A DNA stretch of 35,603 bases from a virus. Every line of letters starts with the position of its first letter. Position 1 is the first letter of the stretch. The stretch lies in IMG/VR virus record IMGVR_UViG_3300042922_000702, positions 1 to 35,603 of that record; one strand, written 5' to 3'. Made by a program: the position numbers and the translations under genes. This document shows positions 1,822-35,603 of this stretch, piece after piece. The notes below the pieces were generated by a model. The model did no database searches. It saw only the letters and a program-made list of their open reading frames with translations, and was not told the origin of the DNA.

Positions 1822-2688
1822 TCAGCAATCGTCTAATAAACCTGGAAGATAATTATTTATAAGGGCTAAGTGCTGTGTTATGCGTGATCCAATCAATGCC
1901 CCAGGAATATTACCTTTTTCTTTTTTATATTCAATTGTAATGGCATGAAGTTTGGGTCTTTCTATTTTTGGTTTAATACACAACTTATTTAAATCAAATG
2001 AACTAAATTTAAAAATAGCACCACCACTGAAGCCTTGCGGTGTCGGAGAAAGAGTAAAAATGCCATTTTTAAGAAGATTTTTTTCGTATGCCAAAGAGAG
2101 ATGCCATTCTCTATCAATACCTAACAACTCATAGTCTTCTTTGAGCAACTCCCTAGAGCCAAAACTTTCACGTTTACAATTGATAGTGCTGTTACGTAAC
2201 TTAGAATTTTTTGAATAAAATCCACTCACTATATACGAGTGGTCGAAACTGTCCGAGACCGTTCTATCAAGATCATCGTAGTTTAAAGCAAGTTTTTTTA
2301 TGTTATCACTTATAGAATCTTGTATATGAAATACTGATGAATCGTAAGGATCATCATTATGCGTTCCAGATACCCCCCTTGCTGTACTGAACCTATCACC
2401 TTTAAACGTCGTCACCCTCTCTTCACCTTCACACGACATTAATAACTCATGTTCACCTATAGCATCAAATACATGCGATGCAGAAAACACGAAGTACTCA
2501 CCTTTTATATTAACAAATACACCACTTCCAATTTGCTCAGGCCGACTTTCATGTTTCAATGGAAACAGAATTGCATTAACAGATTTTTCAATCTGAAGTG
2601 TATTATCCAAACATATTGCGAAATGTGTTTGTATGCGCCCTATTACTTTCTTTGTAAGCGGATTTTTGAGATCTATTTTTTCTTTCAT
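1822..2688 (-). CDS. Trypsin-like serine protease domain protein, prophage cargo
   Basis: A 288-residue cytoplasmic-looking protein (no signal peptide) with the three signatures of a chymotrypsin/trypsin-fold peptidase: catalytic His in FSASHVFD (about residue 72), a likely Asp in DPYDSSVFHI (about 116) and the nucleophile Ser in PQGFSGGAIF (about 221). This is the bacterial trypsin-like-peptidase pattern (H...D...GxSGG). The start at 2688 is chosen because GGGAAG precedes it; an in-frame ATG at 2700 lacks a ribosome site. The gene is AT-rich compared with the late genes, stands alone between ogr and attL, and is not part of the P2 core. It could be a defence or conversion factor; the substrate is unknown. 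Confidence 0.72.
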   Translation of the reverse strand: MKEKIDLKNPLTKKVIGRIQTHFAICLDNTLQIEKSVNAILFPLKHESRPEQIGSGVFVNIKGEYFVFSASHVFDAIGEHELLMSCEGEERVTTFKGDRFSTARGVSGTHNDDPYDSSVFHIQDSISDNIKKLALNYDDLDRTVSDSFDHSYIVSGFYSKNSKLRNSTINCKRESFGSRELLKEDYELLGIDREWHLSLAYEKNLLKNGIFTLSPTPQGFSGGAIFKFSSFDLNKLCIKPKIERPKLHAITIEYKKEKGNIPGALIGSRITQHLALINNYLPGLLDDC

Positions 2689-2727
2689 AACACTTCCCAT
2701 TTAGTAAACATAAAGCGTAAAAAATTG

Positions 2728-15095: not shown

Positions 15096-15995
15096 TCATT
15101 CTTTAGGGGTTGTAACAACCACTGAATTATAAAGATACATTTTTTCAGCCTCCTCTTTATCAAGCTTCATTATGCTCGCAAGTAAATCGAGATCTACTTT
15201 TTTGCATCGTTTTGATATTTGTTTAACGATTTCAGAATTATTCTCATGAGCCTTTAAAAAAATATAATTAGAAATATATTTCTTTTTTAGCAATCCTGAT
15301 GCCATACTAGGGAAGTTTAGCAAAAAGTCATTTATGGTGATTAATAGATCATCACCCAATACGATGAATTTCTCTGTCAAGTCGACATATTTCATAAGCA
15401 GACTTTCATCGAGCAAAGGATATACATCTTTTAATGCTACCTCAGCTTTTGCTCCCGTCCCCGAAATCAAAGAAGCCAATTGTTTCTTGACATCTTCATC
15501 AAGTTTATTTCTGATAGTTAACAACTCAATATATTGATTGTAATTACCATACGTTGCAACAAATGATGAAATATTCATCCAAGGATATTTATCTAGATCT
15601 AATTTACGTGAATATAACAATTGCACTAACTCATTAGATTCAAAAGTTACAGCCTCAATTCTAGCTGGCATCATTGGGATACATAAAGCACGCTGCAAAG
15701 GGTGCGTTTCCAAGGAATCAAAATAATTAACCTTAATGGCAACAATATTGGCCTGCATATTCTGCATCTGAAGGATTATTTTATTTAGAACATCCACCTT
15801 TGCTCGTTCATTCTTAGATGCTTCCTGATATTGGTACCCCCTTATAGCAATGAAATATGCGGTTAAAGCTGATAGCAGAACCACAAACACAGGCATGATA
15901 TAATCTTTAAACATGTTGGTTTGACTTGCTATATTTACGGCATCTGTTAAATGATTTAAAGCTATTACAATCGAATAAGGGTCGAACGATATCAT
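15096..15995 (-). CDS. Unknown membrane-anchored protein, prophage cargo
   Basis: A protein of about 299 residues that I do not recognise. From the preferred start (MISFDPYS, AGGA 9 bp upstream; the frame extends to 16058 without support) it has a short N-terminal helix and one strong transmembrane span (about residues 32-51, YIMPVFVVLLSALTAYFIAI). About 245 mostly helical, Lys-rich residues follow, probably cytoplasmic. It lies between S and V, a junction without a gene of this kind in the P2 core, and is much more AT-rich than its neighbours. It is on the late strand, followed by a 207-bp gap that must hold the V promoter. A single N-terminal anchor with a large helical cytoplasmic domain is compatible with an exclusion or abortive-infection protein, but nothing in the sequence proves it. 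Confidence 0.6.
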   Translation of the reverse strand: MISFDPYSIVIALNHLTDAVNIASQTNMFKDYIMPVFVVLLSALTAYFIAIRGYQYQEASKNERAKVDVLNKIILQMQNMQANIVAIKVNYFDSLETHPLQRALCIPMMPARIEAVTFESNELVQLLYSRKLDLDKYPWMNISSFVATYGNYNQYIELLTIRNKLDEDVKKQLASLISGTGAKAEVALKDVYPLLDESLLMKYVDLTEKFIVLGDDLLITINDFLLNFPSMASGLLKKKYISNYIFLKAHENNSEIVKQISKRCKKVDLDLLASIMKLDKEEAEKMYLYNSVVVTTPKE

Positions 15996-16075
15996 GATGT
16001 TATCCTGTGGGATTCTATTTGAGGTCAAACATCGAACTATTGTAAACGCACTATGCATTTTCGGTAAGCAAAAAA

Positions 16076-23696: not shown

Positions 23697-24722
23697 ATGA
23701 AAAAACGCCAACAGAAACAGCCAAAACAGACCAACATGACCGCCAGCGCACCGCAGAAAATGGAGGCGTTCACCTTTGGCGAGCCGTCACCCGTTCTGGA
23801 TCGCCGCGACATTCTCGACTATGTCGAGTGCATAAATAACGGCAAATGGTACGAGCCGCCGGTCAACTTCTCCGGGCTGGCGAAAAGCCTGCGCGCCGCC
23901 GTTCACCACAGCTCCCCGATTTACGTGAAGCGCAACATTCTGACGAGTACCTACATCCCGCATCCGTTGCTTTCACGTCAGGATTTCAGCCGCCTTGTGC
24001 TCGATTATCTGGTCTTTGCAAACGGCTATCTTGAAAAGCGCATGAGCGTCACCGGCCAGCTTTTTAAACTGGAAACCTCCCCGGCCAAATATACCCGCCG
24101 TGGCGTCGAGGATGGCGTTTACTGGTACGTGTCGGACTTCACTCACCCGCACCAGTTCGCGCCCGGCTCGGTGTGCCATTTGCTGGAGCCTGACATCAAT
24201 CAGGAGCTCTACGGGATGCCGGAATACCTGAGCGCGCTAAATTCAGCCTGGCTGAATGAATCCGCCACGCTGTTTCGTCGCAAGTATTACCAGAACGGCG
24301 CGCACGCGGGTTACATCATGTACGTCACCGACGCGGCGCAGAGCAGCACTGACGTTGAGTCGCTGCGCTCCGCGATGAGGGATTCGAAAGGGCTCGGGAA
24401 TTTCAAAAACCTGTTTTTCTATGCCCCGAACGGGAAACCGGACGGCATTAAGATCGTGCCGTTGAGTGAAGTCGCCACAAAGGATGATTTTTTTAACATC
24501 AAGAAGGTGAGCGCCGCCGACCTGCTCGATGCGCACCGCGTACCGTTCCAGCTCATGGGCGGCAAGCCCGAGAATATCGGCTCAATGGGCGATATCGAGA
24601 AGGTCGCGCGAGTGTTTGTGCGTAACGAGCTGACGCCGCTGCAGGAGCGTTTCAAAGAAATCAATGAATGGCTCGGGATGGAGGTGATCCGTTTTAAGGA
24701 TTACAACATCGAAACTGAGTAA
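23697..24722 (+). CDS. Q: Portal protein gpQ
   Basis: A 341-residue portal vertex protein of the PBSX/P2 family. Conserved motifs are MEAFTFGEPSPVLDRRDILDY, the KSLRAAVHHSSPIYVKRNIL segment, FANGYLEKR and QLMGGKPENIGSMGDIEKVAR. It starts one base after the P stop codon, forming the P-Q operon that points toward cos, as in P2. Confidence 0.97.
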   Translation: MKKRQQKQPKQTNMTASAPQKMEAFTFGEPSPVLDRRDILDYVECINNGKWYEPPVNFSGLAKSLRAAVHHSSPIYVKRNILTSTYIPHPLLSRQDFSRLVLDYLVFANGYLEKRMSVTGQLFKLETSPAKYTRRGVEDGVYWYVSDFTHPHQFAPGSVCHLLEPDINQELYGMPEYLSALNSAWLNESATLFRRKYYQNGAHAGYIMYVTDAAQSSTDVESLRSAMRDSKGLGNFKNLFFYAPNGKPDGIKIVPLSEVATKDDFFNIKKVSAADLLDAHRVPFQLMGGKPENIGSMGDIEKVARVFVRNELTPLQERFKEINEWLGMEVIRFKDYNIETE

Positions 24723-24887: not shown

Positions 24888-24906
24888 GTGCTATCCCCGC
24901 CTCGCC
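24888..24906 (-). other. cos: cos site (19-base cohesive end)
   Basis: The minus strand reads GGCGAGGCGGGGATAGCAC followed by TGCGCGC. This matches the P2/P4 cohesive end as I remember it except for one base (A to T), and the match continues beyond the 19 bases. Position and orientation relative to Q are as in P2, where virion DNA begins with this sequence and runs into Q. Confidence 0.85.
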
Positions 24907-24962: not shown

Positions 24963-25002
24963 GCATCGAGCGATTGTTCAAAAAAGAACAATCGCTCGAT
25001 GC
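24963..25002. repeat. Perfect 17-bp inverted repeat beside cos
   Basis: Arms 24963-24979 and 24986-25002 are fully complementary, with an A6 loop. It lies 57 bp from cos and 33 bp beyond the kinase operon's last stop codon. There is no T run outside the stem, so it is not a classical terminator, though it may stop or stabilise the operon mRNA. Confidence 0.75.
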
Positions 25003-25034: not shown

Positions 25035-26096
25035 CTACTTAGCTTTAATGACGGGATGAGCCCTATCATGACCCCCGCCTAAAAACTTAGAAAAGATAAC
25101 TTTGTCTTGGCTTACTGGTTTTTTTCCATAAACACTGTCGTAATGGAAAAAAACCTGAGGTTGATTCGAAACATGAATAAATCCATAAGCTAAACGAGTG
25201 TCTCCGATCACTCCGACCTCTCGTTCACAAACTGGATAACATAATAAGCCACACATCGATACCAGTTGATCAGCAGTAGGACGGTCATCAGGATTTGAAA
25301 CCAAACATGCCTCAATTATTTTGATTATTTCGTTTGCCAAAGGCGCAAACTGTCCATTTGATGTTATAAAATTCGGATAAGGGACATGTTTACCAGAAAG
25401 AATCCCCGGTATTGCCATATAACCAATGCCAAATGGATATTCTCCTGTAAGAATTCTAAACATCATTGCACCTAAAGCCCAAACATCTGAAGGCTTCGAT
25501 ACCTGACCAAGACTCCTAATAATTTCAGGAGCCATATAAGGTAAAGCCCCCATGGCTGTTTGAGATGTAGTGATAGATCCTTGGCCGTTTTTTGCCGCCT
25601 CATCTATTTCATCACCAGCCATTTTTGATATACCAAAATCTGTTATTTTTACGCCAGTTGCACTGAGACCACCAGTAACCATTATATTAGAAGGTTTTAA
25701 ATCTCTATGGATGACATTTACATGATGGGACGCTGACAATGCCTTTGCAAGGTTATGGAATATTTTTGCCGTCAAATAAGGGTCAACACTAGTATAATGG
25801 CTAAGTAACGCTTGATCGAGATCTACTCCATCGATGTATTCTTCAGTTAAGAACTCTCGTTCTCCACTAGTAAAATAATCTAATGTTTTTGCAACGTTAG
25901 GATGATTCACTTTCGATGCTAAAACGGCACTTCTATGAAATCTCTTTTCTGCAGATTTATTTTTTGGAGTTTTAAGTGCAACGTTTCGCCCAAGGATATT
26001 ATCTTCCGCCAAATAAACCTTCTGCATGCCACCCTCACCAATTTCCTTGATGATTGTATAGCGCTCAATACGAACTCCTGCCGCGAGCTCAATCAT
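25035..26096 (-). CDS. Ser/Thr protein kinase with C-terminal cold-shock/OB domain
   Basis: A 353-residue Hanks-type kinase without a membrane span. All catalytic elements are present: glycine loop GEGGMQKV (20-27), VALK lysine (42), HRDLKPSN (130-137), DFG (153-155) and APE (189-191), so it should be active. After the kinase domain (about 10-280), residues about 296-353 look like a cold-shock/OB fold with two RNP-like strands, YGFIHV and VFFHY, spaced as in CspA-type proteins. This suggests nucleic-acid binding. The start overlaps the upstream kinase stop (ATGA). It is the last gene of the PP2C-kinase-kinase operon, next to cos. Kinase-OB fusions are known from TerY-associated phosphoprotein systems; the comparison is from memory. 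Confidence 0.88.
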   Translation of the reverse strand: MIELAAGVRIERYTIIKEIGEGGMQKVYLAEDNILGRNVALKTPKNKSAEKRFHRSAVLASKVNHPNVAKTLDYFTSGEREFLTEEYIDGVDLDQALLSHYTSVDPYLTAKIFHNLAKALSASHHVNVIHRDLKPSNIMVTGGLSATGVKITDFGISKMAGDEIDEAAKNGQGSITTSQTAMGALPYMAPEIIRSLGQVSKPSDVWALGAMMFRILTGEYPFGIGYMAIPGILSGKHVPYPNFITSNGQFAPLANEIIKIIEACLVSNPDDRPTADQLVSMCGLLCYPVCEREVGVIGDTRLAYGFIHVSNQPQVFFHYDSVYGKKPVSQDKVIFSKFLGGGHDRAHPVIKAK

Positions 26097-27157
26097 AACA
26101 CCACCTCCGGATGAGAAAGGTCGAAAGTAATAAAAATACGTTTAGTGGTTGTCTTACCTGCAGGACCGAGAATTATTACACAAGAATTAGGGAGTATGTT
26201 AAACTGTTTCGCCCTAATATTATTAACATGCACATCACCAGATAGCTTTGAGATAAAAAAAACAGAGCCTGAATATGTTATTTCTATGCTCCCTATTCCT
26301 GGGTTATCGTAAAATTCTGTTCTGTGTGTTTCCGAAAGTACTACTGGTTTTTTATAATCTGTTATAAGTAACGCTCGATGTGAATTATTAAGTAAAATAT
26401 TTTTTAGAGCATCACGAACAACCTTCATAGAAGGTCGATTACTTGGATCAACATCCAAACATGCATATAGTATTTTTTTAATATTATCAGGAAGTTGTAT
26501 TTGAGAGCTGTCAAAGGGATTAGCCTTTAATTGTTTAGGATAAAAACCTAATTCAGCCGGTGCTTCCGTTTTTGCCAGACACATCGCAGTAACAGCAAAA
26601 GCATAGGTATCTACGGCTTTCGTGAAACGTACATGCTGCATATATAGTTCTGGAGCGGCGAAAATAGGTGTACCCTTGAAGCCCACGGTATGAGCATTAT
26701 CTATATTCCTAGACAACCCAAAATCATATATCTTTACAACGCCCTCATGGTCTACTTTCATATTGCCAGGCTTAATATCTCGATGAATTATGTCGCAATC
26801 ATGAATCTCTGCGATACCAGAAGATATTTGCCATAAAATTTTAATGAGGGAACTGTCATCATTTATGCTATCATTGATTTCATGTAATGAAGGACCATTA
26901 ATAAATTCTTCTACTATCGAAATAGTACCGTCGTCATATTCTATAGCATCGAAAACTTCTACAACATGCTTTGATCTAAGTCGCATTAATGCAGAGAGTT
27001 CGTCTCTCATACGCGCAGAATCATGTGCATCGTTTATAGATTTAATCGCCACATATCTATCTAAATGAGTATCTAAACACTTAACGACACTACCGAATCC
27101 GCCGGATTCGTGATCATCGGTAGGAACATATCTTTTAGGTAGAGTTCTATTTTCCAT
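26093..27157 (-). CDS. Ser/Thr protein kinase with C-terminal beta-rich (FHA-like?) domain
   Basis: A 354-residue Hanks-type kinase with SGGFGSV (18-24), VAIK lysine (39), HRDIKPGN (125-132), DFG (145-147) and a GTPIFAAPE activation segment (162-170). The domain ends near 255. Residues about 260-354 are beta-rich, and GDVHVNNIRAKQFNILPN followed by CVIILG resembles the second half of an FHA phosphopeptide-binding domain. The protein ends FDLSHPEVVL. This assignment is tentative. There is no membrane span. It overlaps the phosphatase gene by 11 bp, with its own GGGAGAT ribosome site, and is coupled to the next kinase by ATGA. Confidence 0.86.
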   Translation of the reverse strand: MENRTLPKRYVPTDDHESGGFGSVVKCLDTHLDRYVAIKSINDAHDSARMRDELSALMRLRSKHVVEVFDAIEYDDGTISIVEEFINGPSLHEINDSINDDSSLIKILWQISSGIAEIHDCDIIHRDIKPGNMKVDHEGVVKIYDFGLSRNIDNAHTVGFKGTPIFAAPELYMQHVRFTKAVDTYAFAVTAMCLAKTEAPAELGFYPKQLKANPFDSSQIQLPDNIKKILYACLDVDPSNRPSMKVVRDALKNILLNNSHRALLITDYKKPVVLSETHRTEFYDNPGIGSIEITYSGSVFFISKLSGDVHVNNIRAKQFNILPNSCVIILGPAGKTTTKRIFITFDLSHPEVVL

Positions 27158-28313
27158 TTTTATCTCCCTTAACCGAATTCTTTTCCGAGAAAGGCATATC
27201 TAACTGTGAAATATTCTCTAATTCTTCATTTTTATTAAGCTCTTTTTTCTCTATATTCTTTGCATTAGCATTTTTGCTTCTTGCTTTTCTTTTTACCCCT
27301 GCTTTTTTTTCAATACCAGTATTAATTTTATCACTACCTACCGGTTCACTTTTATCAACATTATCTTGCTTATCATTACCTTGTGAACCAGCTTGGGGCA
27401 AATTAACAAGCTTTAATTCGCCAAAAGGATCCCATACATTTATTACATATTCTGAACTAACATCAAGTTCCTTTAAAATACCATCTACATCTACAACTGC
27501 CACAGTCGCATTATCAAAACCACCAAACCAGCTAGCAAGATCAATTATTCTTTTGGCATATACACCTGTATTTGAAGAGTGCACAAAAAGTTTATTTAAA
27601 TTAGCATCTCCGATGGTATGCGCTCCATCAGAGCTTAAAAGCACGGTTCCTCCCTGAGGAGCAGTTATGTCATAAAAATGAATTTGTAAGACACTATCAA
27701 TCCCAATAAATTGAACTAGTTCACCACCGAATTTCGAGTCTATCTCTGACGACTCAATATCAATATTATTGTATTTTTTTGCTAGTGCAACAAGTGTATC
27801 ATCCTCACTCAATTGCACTATACCATCATTTGTTAGACCATATATTCTACTATCACCAACATTAGCTGTAGTTATATATCCAGAGCCATCTAAGACAATA
27901 GCGGTTAGCGTAGCCCCTCCATTACCTTTGTATAACTTAAGCACTGCTTCATTTGATTTCAATATAGCTTTTTCAAGGCATTCTCTTACACCAAGATGAC
28001 AGCCCCTAATTACCTCCGTGAAAAAAGTAGAAAGAGTCAACGAAGCAGCATTGGCCCCTCCTTCCATCCCGCCCATACCATCAGCTAAGGCAACTACAAC
28101 CATATCCTTTGTCTTGTTCGCTGGCCGGAACTTTAAGACAGAAACTCTATCCTGATTCTCTTTTCTAACCAAACCAATATCTGTTGCTATAGCAACTGGC
28201 AACGTTGAAACTCGACGGACTGAAGAAGATATATTCTTTCTATGTAGCCATCCGTGTATTTGTTCATGAAGGATCTCGTAAGAATCGCAGCTCACACTAC
28301 CTCCCACTAACAT
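27147..28313 (-). CDS. PP2C-family protein phosphatase
   Basis: A phosphatase of about 388 residues with the metal-dependent PP2C motifs in order: NQD (about 53-55), ADGMGG (77-82), GGATLTA, NVGDSRIY, SSDGAH and the final FDNATVAVV (Asp about 267). All metal-ligand aspartates are present. About 50 residues with no recognised motif precede the catalytic domain. The last 70 or so residues form a Lys/Glu/Asn-rich, probably disordered tail. It is the first gene of the operon with two kinases, which it probably counteracts. The start is uncertain: ATG 28313 is used here. GTG 28295 has the better ribosome site (GGGAGG), and TTG 28325 is also in frame. Confidence 0.88.
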   Translation of the reverse strand: MLVGGSVSCDSYEILHEQIHGWLHRKNISSSVRRVSTLPVAIATDIGLVRKENQDRVSVLKFRPANKTKDMVVVALADGMGGMEGGANAASLTLSTFFTEVIRGCHLGVRECLEKAILKSNEAVLKLYKGNGGATLTAIVLDGSGYITTANVGDSRIYGLTNDGIVQLSEDDTLVALAKKYNNIDIESSEIDSKFGGELVQFIGIDSVLQIHFYDITAPQGGTVLLSSDGAHTIGDANLNKLFVHSSNTGVYAKRIIDLASWFGGFDNATVAVVDVDGILKELDVSSEYVINVWDPFGELKLVNLPQAGSQGNDKQDNVDKSEPVGSDKINTGIEKKAGVKRKARSKNANAKNIEKKELNKNEELENISQLDMPFSEKNSVKGDKNGK

Positions 28314-28631
28314 AATGATGTCCAAAGAAACAGATTACAAAACCTCGGCACGAATTCCTAGTATTTTAAAGGAGATAGATGATTTTTTCATGTTTAAACT
28401 GGTCGTGTTTTGTACCATCAATAAACGTATGACATCATTAGCTACGTGAGAAGTTAAGAAAATTTAAATCTGTGCGTGTCGTTCATAAGCATTCATCCTC
28501 GGGCTAGCGAGTCTAGCTCTTGTCTACTTGAGGTAATGTCCTTCAGATTTAGCAAGACTATCATGCTTGTGCTTTTCAAAAGGTCAGAACTTGTTATTCA
28601 TCCAAGATGGTTTACCTGCTATTTTTTATGA
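28314..28631 (-). promoter_or_regulatory. Leader/promoter region of the phosphatase-kinase operon
   Basis: About 318 AT-rich bases between the A stop and the phosphatase start, with no credible gene. On the minus strand TTGATG (28421-28416) and TTTAAA (28398-28393) are separated by 17 bp and form a reasonable sigma-70 promoter about 80 bp upstream of the operon. No terminator for A is evident, so read-through from the early operon is possible. Confidence 0.4.
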
Positions 28632-30701
28632 TTATCCACTTTTTTGCAGACGTTTTGGGCTTAGCGCATCTTGTTTCAAGGCTGCTTTAAGAACCATTAC
28701 GACTTCGGGGTCATCCAATCGGATAGCTCCAATATCAACTAGATCTAGCACCGCTGCGGCATGCTCAGAAGGTGATGGAGCCATAACCGTAACCTCACCG
28801 CCGGTGAGCTTTCCACAGTTATTGACAGGACTCCGAGGCGCGGCAGAGCCGCTTTTTAAGGTCAAAGGCTCAACGGCCAAAACCTTTGGAACGATACGCC
28901 ATTCGGCTGTACGGGTTACATGGACACGGTCAGTCCCGAGATGAGGGGCATAAATACCGACCACCCTCTCGATATCTTCCTCGTACTCGTTAACCTCATC
29001 CGTCACCTTACGGGCGACCCTGACGGCCTGAGCATCACGCGGCATGTTTGCCCCACCCTGCGCGATGATGTACCGCTCAAAGTCACCCTCATCTGCAGCA
29101 GCTCGCGCGGCCTCGACCCTGTCGTCAAACTCGCAGGCAATACTCACCCCACGTGGCAGTTTACGCAGTTCGCGGTAAGCGCCCATCGTCGGGAGACCAA
29201 TCGGTTTAAACTGAGGGATGCGCCATGTTGACGCCCATGCGGTGACGGCTGCGGCCGTGTCTTTTAGAGGCTTGCCGGTGTCATTATCGAGCTGGCCGTC
29301 GAGCGCGTAACCGTCGATATTTTTTGCAATGTATTTAGCGATATAACCCGCCGCTCCGCCCTGATTAAGATGGCGTGACTCAAAGCGCTGTTTTGCCGCG
29401 CCCTTTTCGTGTCCGTCCTCTTTGAGGGCATAACGACGCATAATTTCGTTAATGGCTTTACGCTGACCGGGTTTGCAAAACAGCATCATGTGCCAGTGTG
29501 GCGTGCCGTCATGGTGCGGTTCGACAACACGCATCCCGTAAACCTCTAAATCGTTATCTTTGAAAGCTGTACGCATCAGGCTCCAGACTCGGCACAGATA
29601 GCGCTGGCCGTCTTTGGGTGTGAATGCTGTTTCGTTCCAGCCGTGATTGAGCTGCACCGTTTTGCTTTCACCTTTGCCAACCTGACGGGTCGGGTGATAC
29701 TTCGATGGCGTGGTCAACGTGATAAACATTCCCACGTCACCAACGCTGGTCGCGTAGCGTTCAATCCCGGCGATAGTATTCATCAGCTCCATACGACGTA
29801 TTTCAGGGTTCGAAATACTCCCCATGACCTTGCTTATGAGGTCAATACGTTCGCCGGTGATTTTGTTTTCCAGCTCGCAGGATTTCAGGTATTCGAGATT
29901 AGCCAGACGGCGCGCGTGAACATCGCGGATCGCTATTTTGCTTGCGTAAGGTGAACGGTCTTTGTTGACCTCACCTGCTGCGATGAGCAGCGCCTCGCGC
30001 CAGCGCATCCGCTGCGCCTTGAGCTGGTTGACCCACCACTCGTCTTTAATCAGTCGTGAAATTGCGGAAAATGCCATGCGGATCGTCATCTGACCCTTAC
30101 GGTATTTTTTCCAGAACATCGGGGTGATGTTAAATGCGCGAGCAATACCGGCCACTTGCCCGTATAGGTGCGACTGAGCTTCATCGGTGAAAAGTGTCTC
30201 TTTCCCGCCGTAAGCCTCCGCCCATGCGTCGCTTAACTCCTCGTATTTGCTCCAGAGCTGAGAGGCAATTCTGGCCGCAAATTTCCTGAGCTCTTTGTCA
30301 TTCATATCTGGTAAGCGCGCATACTGGTCGCGCTCGGACAGAAACCCAATCGAGGCGGTTTCATTCATCCCGCACAGCTCATTAACACGCTCAAGACGTG
30401 GCAGCAGCTTGCGCTCAAACGTGTTTTTAAGGAAATACAGCCCACCTAAAGGGCTCTTTTTACGGCGGATGAAGTTATAACGCGATGTAAACAGCGTTTG
30501 CAGGAAAAACGGCAGACGGTCAATCCGGTTTAAAACACCTTGCACCTGACGGAGTTCGGCACGTGTAAGGGGTCTGTCGCGGCCAATGGCCTCTTTGGTG
30601 ACGTTATTCCAGGGATAAGCACCAACGAATGAATCACTGGCGCCCTTCAAAAATGGTGGTGGTGGCGAGGGGGCAACACGCCCCCGAGGTTCGTTGGACA
30701 T
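28632..30701 (-). CDS. A: Replication initiator endonuclease gpA
   Basis: A 689-residue rolling-circle initiator of the P2 A / HUH class, which nicks the origin and stays bound through tyrosine. The metal-binding motif is PHWHMMLF (about residues 401-408). The paired catalytic tyrosines are Y453 and Y457 in GYIAKYIAKN, the Y-x3-Y pattern of P2 A. The start at 30701 is 1 bp after the DUF5405 gene; the frame continues 14 codons upstream without support. It is somewhat shorter than P2 A. In P2 the origin lies within this gene; I could not locate the nick site here. Confidence 0.95.
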   Translation of the reverse strand: MSNEPRGRVAPSPPPPFLKGASDSFVGAYPWNNVTKEAIGRDRPLTRAELRQVQGVLNRIDRLPFFLQTLFTSRYNFIRRKKSPLGGLYFLKNTFERKLLPRLERVNELCGMNETASIGFLSERDQYARLPDMNDKELRKFAARIASQLWSKYEELSDAWAEAYGGKETLFTDEAQSHLYGQVAGIARAFNITPMFWKKYRKGQMTIRMAFSAISRLIKDEWWVNQLKAQRMRWREALLIAAGEVNKDRSPYASKIAIRDVHARRLANLEYLKSCELENKITGERIDLISKVMGSISNPEIRRMELMNTIAGIERYATSVGDVGMFITLTTPSKYHPTRQVGKGESKTVQLNHGWNETAFTPKDGQRYLCRVWSLMRTAFKDNDLEVYGMRVVEPHHDGTPHWHMMLFCKPGQRKAINEIMRRYALKEDGHEKGAAKQRFESRHLNQGGAAGYIAKYIAKNIDGYALDGQLDNDTGKPLKDTAAAVTAWASTWRIPQFKPIGLPTMGAYRELRKLPRGVSIACEFDDRVEAARAAADEGDFERYIIAQGGANMPRDAQAVRVARKVTDEVNEYEEDIERVVGIYAPHLGTDRVHVTRTAEWRIVPKVLAVEPLTLKSGSAAPRSPVNNCGKLTGGEVTVMAPSPSEHAAAVLDLVDIGAIRLDDPEVVMVLKAALKQDALSPKRLQKSG

Positions 30702-30702
30702 A

Positions 30703-30966
30703 TTATTTAAAAGCGTCCAGACATTGCTTCCCCATGCGTTCAATCCGAGCTTCCAAAGCTGAGAAGCCGGTAAGATCGCTGGTCAAAAGATCATGCAAAA
30801 CCAAGCCTGAGATAAGCTTAGGGATAGTTGGGTAGTAACCCACAACGTCCAACCATTCCTTACCTTCATTCTTCCCGGATGTAGCGGTCTTTTTTTCCTG
30901 CAAAATGAATTGATAGCGGTCACTAGTGATGACGTATTGGTTATTAATCTCGATGCGTATGCTCAT
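30703..30966 (-). CDS. DUF5405 family early protein
   Basis: An 87-residue small early protein, beginning MSIRIEINNQYVITSDRYQF, conserved in P2-like early operons between B and A and known to me as DUF5405. It has no established function. The ribosome site AGGAAG precedes the ATG. The gene ends one base before A. Confidence 0.8.
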   Translation of the reverse strand: MSIRIEINNQYVITSDRYQFILQEKKTATSGKNEGKEWLDVVGYYPTIPKLISGLVLHDLLTSDLTGFSALEARIERMGKQCLDAFK

Positions 30967-33743: not shown

Positions 33744-33816
33744 CCGCTTTTTATGGCTTTTGACTGCTAGTAGTAAAACGTGAAGCCTTGTCTGGCGCGG
33801 CTTTCCAGTTACGCCA

Positions 33817-33839
33817 GACATTAAAAAGGCTCCCTCAGG
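33817..33839. repeat. attR core (23-bp direct repeat)
   Basis: Identical to 1660-1682. It supplies the proximal half of the leuE terminator hairpin; the other half is the adjoining host sequence. The prophage end at int and this repeat define the phage boundary. Confidence 0.88.
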
Positions 33840-33846
33840 AGCCTTT
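33823..33846 (-). terminator. leuE terminator, overlapping attR
   Basis: On the minus strand GGCTCC-TGAG-GGAGCC is followed by five T. The gene's stop codon is 7 bp away. Integration keeps the hairpin perfect because the phage core carries one arm. Confidence 0.88.
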
Positions 33847-33852
33847 CTTCTG

Positions 33853-34488
33853 TCAATGCAGCGACGCTAACCTCGCCGCAAAACCGACAAATATCAGTCC
33901 GATCAGTCCATTTCCCAGCGTCGCCAGTTTCTTTTTGGTTTTCAGGTAACGGGTGACAAACGCACCAGAGAAGATCAGGAAGCTCATGTACATAAAGCTA
34001 ATCAGCTCAAGCGTGGTGGCGAGGATCAGGAAAGAGGTTCCCGTGTTTTGCGCATTTACGTCAATAAACTGTACGAAGAATGACACGTAAAACAGAATCG
34101 CTTTAGGATTCGTCAGGCTCAATACCAGGGAACGTTTCATGATCGCGCTGGCAGGCTCGGTTCCACCTTCGTGGGCGTTATTCTGGCGAGTCATAACGGA
34201 CCACAGCATTTTGCCGCCGAGCCACAGCAGATAAAACGCCCCCAGATAGCGGACGATATTGAACAGCACCGGCGTGGTCTGGATTAAGGCCGCAACGCCT
34301 GCCCAGGCCAGAAACATTAAAACCGCATCACCGATAAACACACCAGTCGCGGCGAGATAGCCTTTTTTGATGCCGTGACCAATACCCGTTTTTAATACAA
34401 ACAGCGTATTCGGTCCGGGTACCAGCACAATGAAAAATGCGCCGACCACGTACGTCCAGAAATTCAGTACACCAAACTCCGCAAACAC
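33853..34488 (-). CDS. leuE: Leucine efflux protein LeuE (LysE/RhtB family)
   Basis: A 211-residue inner-membrane exporter of the LysE/RhtB superfamily with about six spans. It matches E. coli LeuE in order: the conserved [11 protein letters not shown] motif near residue 25, [21 protein letters not shown], the [19 protein letters not shown] span and [18 protein letters not shown]. It exports leucine and some other hydrophobic amino acids. It is a host gene whose terminator serves as the phage attachment site. In E. coli leuE lies elsewhere, so its presence near yciY/clsA is a feature of this host's genus. Confidence 0.92.
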
Positions 34489-34515
34489 CTCTCCCTCCTT
34501 TTGCTGAAAAACAAC

Positions 34516-34544
34516 GGGAATATCGCTGCAAAAACGATATTCCC
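34516..34544 (-). terminator. Hairpin between the lipoprotein gene and leuE
   Basis: Perfect 10-bp stem GGGAATATCG/CGATATTCCC with a 9-base loop. On the minus strand it is followed by GTTGTTTTT, so it probably terminates the Exc2-like gene. The leuE promoter would have to share this 69-bp gap. Confidence 0.65.
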
Positions 34545-34557
34545 GAAAAATGTCGCG

Positions 34558-34968
34558 TTATTGTACGCCGTTATAGCCGTCAAGATAAGTCGTGGCCAGT
34601 TCGTTGCCGTATAAAATGGCATCCTTCGGCTCCATTTCCGAAGTCCATTTACTCCCACTATTCCCCGTGAAGGCGTGCTCCGTTTTGGCCTCATCCTTTA
34701 ATTGATCGCGAATAGCCTGTGCATACTGCTGGGCGTAAGAAGGCGATTGCCCCGCGGCACGGTCCGCTTTTCCCTGCTTATAAAGCTCACGAAACTGCGG
34801 AACATTGAGACGGTAATTTTGCGAAATGCTGGAGGTATAATTCCCGCCGGTAAAATTTGATTGATGCGAGACGAAATAATAGGCATGTCTTTCAGGTGAG
34901 GGTTTATTGCTGTTGCAACCGCTGAGGACAGCGATCCCCATAAGTACCGCGACCACTTTTCCATTCAT
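34558..34968 (-). CDS. Exc2-like lipoprotein
   Basis: A 136-residue predicted lipoprotein: a short signal peptide ends in the lipobox LSGC (Cys about residue 18). The mature part includes ERHAYYFVSHQSNF, RLNVPQFRELYKQGKADRAAG and the final LATTYLDGYNG. This pattern recalls the Exc2 family (named for the ColE1 entry-exclusion region), which also occurs on enterobacterial chromosomes. The Ser after the lipobox Cys region (CNSN) suggests outer-membrane sorting. No function is established. Confidence 0.75.
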   Translation of the reverse strand: MNGKVVAVLMGIAVLSGCNSNKPSPERHAYYFVSHQSNFTGGNYTSSISQNYRLNVPQFRELYKQGKADRAAGQSPSYAQQYAQAIRDQLKDEAKTEHAFTGNSGSKWTSEMEPKDAILYGNELATTYLDGYNGVQ

Positions 34969-35067
34969 CCTTTGTTCCTTTTAAATTCATGAGGTTAGGC
35001 AAGAGGAGTATATCGCGGAATGAGGTCGGGAGGAGACTGCGAAAAATGATAGTCTTATAAAATCAGC

Positions 35068-35086
35068 GGGCACCTTGACGGTGCCC
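35068..35086 (-). terminator. Terminator of yciY
   Basis: GGGCACC/GGTGCCC stem with a 5-base loop, followed on the minus strand by GCTGATTTTAT; it lies 10 bp beyond the yciY stop. Confidence 0.6.
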
Positions 35087-35095
35087 TCATGGTTC

Positions 35096-35269
35096 TCAGA
35101 TATCCTGGACGGCGAACAGCAACGCGTTGCGGTGTCTGTTTAGTCCACATTTTCTGATAGCGTGGATACGCATATTGCGGCGGGATTGTGCTTCCAGCCA
35201 ACGAGCCTTACGACGACTCACCTGTCGCAACATACGCCAGCGCCCTACTTCTGTTCTACTGCGCTTCAT
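35096..35269 (-). CDS. yciY: YciY, small basic protein
   Basis: A 57-residue, very Arg-rich protein matching E. coli YciY along its length (MKRSRTEVGRWRM, KARWLEAQSRRNMRIHAIRK). The start at 35269 gives the E. coli length; the frame extends seven codons upstream without need. Its function is unknown. It is divergent from clsA, as in E. coli. Confidence 0.9.
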   Translation of the reverse strand: MKRSRTEVGRWRMLRQVSRRKARWLEAQSRRNMRIHAIRKCGLNRHRNALLFAVQDI

Positions 35270-35412
35270 ATCGACAACTCTTTCACTCACAGAGTCGTCA
35301 TTATAAGCTCAACCCCGTCGCAAACCAGCGCTTTTATCTGCCGTTTTTATTTGCCAGATGAATCCTGATGCGTACACTCATAACAATACGCTTTCAAAAG
35401 GATTTTTTACTT

Positions 35413-35603
35413 ATGACAACCTTCTACACCGTGGTGAGTTGGCTGGTCATTCTGGGATACTGGCTGTTAATCGCGGGGGTGACGTTACGCATCCTGATGA
35501 AGCGCAGAGCCGTACCTTCTGCCATGGCCTGGCTTCTGATTATTTACATTCTGCCGCTGGTGGGCATTATCGCGTATCTCTCTTTCGGTGAGCTCCATCT
35601 GGG
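35413..35603 (+). CDS. clsA: Cardiolipin synthase A, N-terminal fragment (runs off the window)
   Basis: The first 63 codons of ClsA, which makes cardiolipin from two phosphatidylglycerol molecules in the inner membrane. The visible part begins [20 protein letters not shown] and contains the two N-terminal membrane spans (about 5-25 and 37-57, [20 protein letters not shown]). The catalytic phospholipase-D HKD motifs are beyond the window. The translation start follows AAAAGGA about 8-10 bp upstream. Confidence 0.92.

Follow-up and report, generated by a model that had tools for sequence, protein, structure and literature searches.

KKP (kinase-kinase-phosphatase) is a phage-defence toxin-antitoxin system reported by Guo et al. 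(2024, Nat Commun 15:7244, PMC11341870). It is defined as a triplet of a PP2C phosphatase and two kinases in this order, each gene being 900-1300 bp long; the published PfkB carries an FHA domain and PfkA a cold-shock domain with a GFI/A motif, and more than 1200 clusters have been counted, over 90% of them in temperate phages, including P2, P4, Mu-like and Pf6-like ones (PMC11341870). Neither PfkA nor PfkB does harm when alone, but the pair is toxic, and PfpC reverses the toxicity; the kinases act on proteins of replication, translation and division, whose phosphorylation arrests growth. It has also been reported that T4 Gp59 binds and inhibits the PfpC of one E. coli KKP, and that E. coli is protected from T4 by KKPs taken from four other hosts (PMC11341870). 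The subject of the present analysis is a three-gene operon (positions 25,035 to 28,295) in the virus record IMGVR_UViG_3300042922_000702 of IMG/VR, whose whole stretch of 35,603 nucleotides is called the window below. In all probability this operon is a KKP module (pfpC-pfkB-pfkA) that a P2-like prophage carries as cargo in its A-cos-Q slot.

The slot itself is also known, since Rousset et al. (2022, PMC9122126) described it among the anti-phage hotspots of P2 and P4. Compared with the P2 old/tin locus and these hotspots, as far as the available passages of that paper go, the window has the identical slot, between gpA and gpQ beside cos and with fast cargo turnover, and a different cargo. The word "phosphatase" is absent from the main text of PMC9122126, and KKP is not singled out in its available passages.

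Organization and Identity of the Operon

The operon is formed by three minus-strand open reading frames (ORFs) in the ORF list of the window:

27147..28295, minus strand: pfpC-like PP2C phosphatase, 1149 bp, recognized by Pfam, NCBIfam, phmmer and motifs; putative antitoxin and presumed infection sensor
26093..27157, minus strand: pfkB-like Ser/Thr kinase (kinase 1), 354 amino acids, 1065 bp, with a predicted C-terminal FHA-fold domain at about residues 255-354
25035..26096, minus strand: pfkA-like Ser/Thr kinase (kinase 2), 353 amino acids, 1062 bp, with a C-terminal cold-shock domain and GFI motif at about residues 286-353

First of all, the order and size of the genes are those of KKP: a PP2C is followed by two Hanks-type kinases, adjacent and on one strand, and all three lengths lie within 900-1300 bp. 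The coupling described in an earlier sequence-only reading is exact at both junctions. The stop codon of the PP2C occupies 27147-27149 and kinase 1 starts at 27157, which gives an 11-bp overlap (27147-27157), and the TGA of kinase 1 sits within an ATGA overlap at 26093-26096, kinase 2 starting at 26096. The operon is also AT-rich and foreign to the phage core, as that reading held (36-39% guanine-cytosine (GC) content vs about 54-60% in most of the core).

The phosphatase scores 25.7 bits against Pfam PP2C_2 (cut-off 24), 1.7e-34 against the NCBIfam Stp1 family and 1.5e-19 against a solved PP2C by phmmer, and its NQD, DGMGG, SDG and DN motifs are all intact. Both kinases match Pfam Pkinase (E 1.6e-40 for kinase 1 and 1.4e-44 for kinase 2), with HRD, DFG and APE intact in each. 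Judged by these motifs, the PP2C and the two kinases are apparently active, as had been proposed. The start of the phosphatase had been placed at 28421, which is impossible because of an in-frame stop at 28337; most likely the gene begins at GTG 28295, preferred over TTG 28325, with GGGAGG upstream and with the same start annotated by NCBI in E. coli homologues.

The arrangement of a PP2C with two different kinases, for which the sequence-only reading had no name, has thus been described already as KKP, with anti-phage activity demonstrated (PMC11341870), and the supposed novelty of the system falls with this match. That is to say, the operon is a further KKP copy and an ordinary member, not a new kind of system. 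What the window allele adds is distance, the nearest copies in complete E. coli genomes having only about 70% nucleotide identity to it.

Accessory Domains of the Two Kinases

The C-terminal domain of kinase 2 (GVIGDTRLAYGFIHV...VFFHYDSVYG...DKVIFSKFLGG) was compared with solved structures through a 15-sequence profile, which matched cold-shock domains at E 2.4e-9 to 1e-6, the best being Unr (2.4e-9) and CspB (1.2e-7). The OB domain, a nucleic-acid-binding fold, that had been proposed on the last kinase is, by this profile match, a cold-shock domain, and its model has a pLDDT (predicted local distance difference test) of 87. The Pfam cold-shock model PF00313 does not match the window kinase 2 alone, its best value being 2e-4 in a relative; when the complete kinase 2 model was used in a fold search, the matches listed were kinases only, the one domain having filled the list. 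The GFI motif is present in the window kinase 2 and most relatives, and is replaced by GFA in locus L099 and by GLI in locus L016.

For kinase 1, the AlphaFold model of residues 248-354 (107 residues) has a pLDDT of 90.4 and a pTM (predicted template modelling) score of 0.82. When this model was searched with VIA-align, all 50 of the 50 listed matches were FHA-domain entries (Z 7.2-9.0); with Foldseek mostly FHA domains stood on top, none below E 1e-3. The middle kinase is therefore, by predicted structure, like PfkB, and the last kinase shares the cold-shock domain and GFI motif of PfkA.

Several points weigh against the assignment to KKP. PF00498, the FHA model that describes PfkB in PMC11341870, has no match to the window kinase 1 or to 15 of its relatives (8 and 7), which is an apparent difference from the published system; among PDB sequences, a hidden Markov model (HMM) search with this region gave no FHA match, and the FHA assignment rests on the predicted fold. 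Moreover, the likeness to the tested KKPs (MPAO1 and 15EC039) is one of domain organization, not of direct alignment, and joint toxicity, the antitoxin role, the trigger and defence are attributed to this copy by analogy with published relatives.

In the alignment of the kinase 1 FHA region there is no invariant Arg or Ser before the conserved Y-G-F core, a hint that the domain may no longer bind phosphothreonine. As for the rates of change, kinase 2 has evolved most slowly of the three (78-86% identity where kinase 1 has 63-71% and the phosphatase catalytic domain 68-70%). A faster divergence of the phosphatase would be in keeping with a protein pressed by the triggers of phages; kinase 1, however, has diverged to the same degree, and the pattern is only suggestive.

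Cargo Slot and Allele Exchange

The place of the operon between A and cos, noted before, is borne out by its neighbours, among them gpP on the side of gpQ and cos. The edges are as follows:

28632..30743, minus strand: gpA replication endonuclease, one slot edge (phrog_91, 7.8e-286)
23697..24722, plus strand: gpQ portal protein, the other slot edge (phrog_68, 2.3e-172)
24888..24906, minus strand: presumably P2-type cos, which bounds the cargo slot beside gpQ; sequence GGCGAGGCGGGGATAGCAC

Beyond the trio, the ORF list holds no minus-strand ORF of at least 60 amino acids between gpQ and gpA. The operon thus occupies a high-turnover slot next to cos, with gpA and gpQ as its edges, and the earlier proposal of a defence cassette in the P2 tin/old slot agrees with a KKP at this position, by analogy with published cargo. 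The A-Q slot was compared in 71 close backbone relatives among the matches listed, those in which both edges are present; it spans 1.3-4.7 kb, is AT-rich (median GC 0.42), and has ORFs of at least 120 amino acids that fall into 76 clusters. KKP is found in none of the 80 portal-based relatives among the matches listed, including the 71 with a readable slot; these relatives are the matches listed and give no frequency of KKP.

Two relatives of the window differ from it in opposite ways. In L006 the flanking DNA is mostly 90-98% identical to that of the window on both sides and KKP has only 59-77% nucleotide identity, whereas in L004 gpA, gpQ and gpP have 78-81% protein identity and kinase 2 has 96%. 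Because L006 combines near flanks with a distant KKP and L004 shows the reverse, KKP alleles, on sequence comparison, are moved or replaced independently of the phage backbone, and the window is a case of such exchange in the P2 cargo slot.

Relatives and Their Carriers

Relatives were sought in viral contigs, genomes, plasmids, phages and E. coli genomes, and 19 loci with a full-length PfkA relative were inspected, among which L005/L010 and L007/L008/L011/L012 are near-duplicates. The conserved co-occurrence proposed as a check on the operon was found: the trio is kept in the same order in 18 of the 19 (L003-L014, L016 and L095-L099). The exception is L015, in which the last kinase is whole, the first kinase retains only its last 221 residues and the PP2C is gone; the loss of the PP2C together with most of the PfkB kinase domain is as expected if the unrestrained pair is toxic. 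This remnant (L015 5330-7077) comes from a Pseudomonas assembly, where its neighbour is a filamentous prophage that bears Zot. In L004 both kinases are open, but a one-base shift within a run of G at about 4280 breaks the frame of the phosphatase; this is likely a sequencing error, and otherwise L004 would be a KKP without antitoxin.

Most of the operon is carried by 18 of 5426 complete E. coli genomes at about 69-70% nucleotide identity in a sensitive search, and megablast of the region against E. coli gave only a short non-coding stretch near cos. The two E. coli chromosomal copies that were examined lie between replication endonuclease and portal genes in P2-like prophages, and a further copy in E. 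coli is found near psu in a P4-type satellite. L099 is in a phage with a transposition protein, and its carrier is therefore taken as Mu-like. The carriers of the relatives (P2-like, P4-like, Mu-like and filamentous Zot-bearing) are the published carrier kinds; relatives are also found on Rhizobium, Agrobacterium and Pantoea plasmids. A scan of genome contigs gave mostly unrelated kinases, and among those inspected only L015 and L016 were relevant.

E. coli NDM2 has KKP in two records (NZ_CP083886 and NZ_CP083887), its chromosome and a plasmid-like one of 43 kb. The latter has P2 genes and may represent a P2-like prophage that is excised or duplicated in the assembly. In the plasmid copy (L012) the phosphatase is split.

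Proposed Mechanism

The family, gene order, domains, intact active-site motifs and slot of the window copy are given by its sequence and structure; its mechanism would follow that of the published relatives, which the intact motifs and conserved accessory domains support. In a healthy lysogen, PfpC would hold both kinases and their targets dephosphorylated. A protein of an infecting phage would then bind and inhibit PfpC, and the released PfkA and PfkB, which would depend on each other and require the cold-shock and FHA domains, would phosphorylate many essential host proteins. This hyperphosphorylation would stop growth, so that the invader would leave few progeny.

The model of the sequence-only reading fits this scheme in one part. 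Its idea that the phosphatase keeps the system off agrees with the published role of PfpC and would by analogy apply here. Its other two elements, a kinase that senses infection and a second kinase that relays the signal, do not hold against the published data (PMC11341870), in which the phosphatase is the sensor and the kinases act jointly, not as sensor and relay; the infection sensor of the window copy is thus presumed to be the phosphatase, not a kinase.

A variant of this scheme is conceivable, though we consider it unlikely, in which P2-borne KKPs would be a distinct lineage with their own leader operator, the FHA domain of PfkB would have lost phosphothreonine recognition and become a constitutive dock for PfkA, and activation would pass through the phosphatase alone.

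Alternative Explanations

The alternative that survives best, and which still seems improbable, is that KKP is mainly a prophage regulator. In this case the balance of kinase and phosphatase would set the phosphorylation of an H-NS-like silencer and thereby the induction of this or a co-resident prophage, with defence as a secondary effect; this reading and that of a KKP defence module are compatible. The KKP of Pf6 does regulate through MvaU in P. aeruginosa, and inter-prophage control elsewhere has been proposed (PMC11341870). However, the operon lies in a slot known for defence cargo, and KKP is missing from all 71 listed backbone relatives with a readable slot, from which it follows that the phage backbone does not need it; in addition, heterologous KKPs defend without their prophage (PMC11341870).

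It is very unlikely that the operon is a kinase cassette for virulence, comparable to prpZ-prkY-prkX of Salmonella Typhi. The prpZ cluster, set beside the window operon by description, is also a phosphatase with two tandem kinases, and differs in being interpreted as a macrophage-survival factor, reportedly through a secreted kinase (PMC11984733); a KKP from S. Typhi CT18 was even tested as KKP in PMC11341870. Yet E. coli carrying this KKP is protected from T4 (PMC11341870), and the window operon has relatives on plasmids of Rhizobium and Agrobacterium, for which survival in macrophages does not matter. Equally slight is the probability that the operon is decaying or neutral cargo without function. 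The fast turnover of P2-type slots, the frameshifted phosphatase of L004 and the L015 remnant would fit such decay, but all three window frames are open with catalytic motifs intact, and alleles with only 59-77% nucleotide identity retain all three genes.

Membership of another kinase-based defence family (PD-T4-6, Stk2, MADS (mad6) or TerY-P) is scarcely credible, for although kinase 2 reaches 6e-60 with mad6 in PADLOC and matches many PD-T4-6 models, down to 2e-53, these matches are confined to the generic kinase domain, the operon has no TerY/vWA, methyltransferase or PglW partner, and in gene order and C-terminal domains it agrees with KKP.

Comparison with Defence-System Models

Searched against the defence HMMs of PADLOC, the operon gave generic kinase matches only, the phosphatase being without any match. 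PADLOC-DB 2023 has no specific KKP model, and its best kinase matches are the PD-T4-6 and MADS models; since a KKP model is missing, annotators may mislabel the operon. The PD-T4-6 matches to kinase 2 end at about residue 280, where the kinase domain ends, and have no curated PADLOC cut-off.

Among the candidates that were rejected, MADS MAD6 reached 124 bits with the NCBIfam MADS6 model (cut-off 460) and BREX PglW 69 bits (cut-off 990), and for the TerY-P triad no vWA (TerY) partner was found among the minus-strand ORFs of at least 60 amino acids between gpQ and gpA. Stk2, PD-T4-6, MADS MAD6 and TerY-P have in common with the window that Ser/Thr kinases act in defence; for Stk2, PD-T4-6, MADS and TerY-P the similarity is limited to the kinase domain, and partners and accessory domains differ.

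Leader Element and 3′ End

Two further elements flank the genes:

28332..28361, minus strand: KKP-specific 30-nucleotide leader element, CTAGGnAT-N11-TTTTGTAAnCT, just upstream of the ribosome-binding site
24963..25002, strand not assigned: 17-bp hairpin directly 3′ of the operon, candidate terminator

The leader element, whose pattern as aligned is CTAGG.AT......TTTTGTAA.CT, recurs at equal length in nine further KKP loci that are P2-borne, representing about five distinct alleles, and is missing from every locus without KKP among the 181 compared, although the pattern was picked after viewing the alignment and its statistics are weak. It is absent from L095, which also lies between gpA and gpQ, and from the P4-borne L181. 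Being common to most P2-borne copies compared, it sets them apart from KKP as published, and it may be a core promoter or operator. The operon had been credited with its own predicted promoter, which is not supported by a sigma-70 consensus scan, at chance level with 10 matches vs 11.8 expected from shuffled sequence.

Other Features of the Window

Positions 1-1800 and 33800-35603 are bacterial-looking flanks with YciI, MarR-GNAT and LysE genes, which suggests an integrated prophage whose two ends are both included in the record. An AT-rich gene (15096-16058, minus strand, 33% GC, phrog_21267 of unknown function) is inserted in the tail gene region (judged from its position, probably between V and S) and is a second candidate cargo gene. 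Another AT-rich gene (1822-2700, minus strand), situated between host DNA and ogr, has a weak match (3e-4) to LmuA of Lamassu and is a possible third cargo gene.

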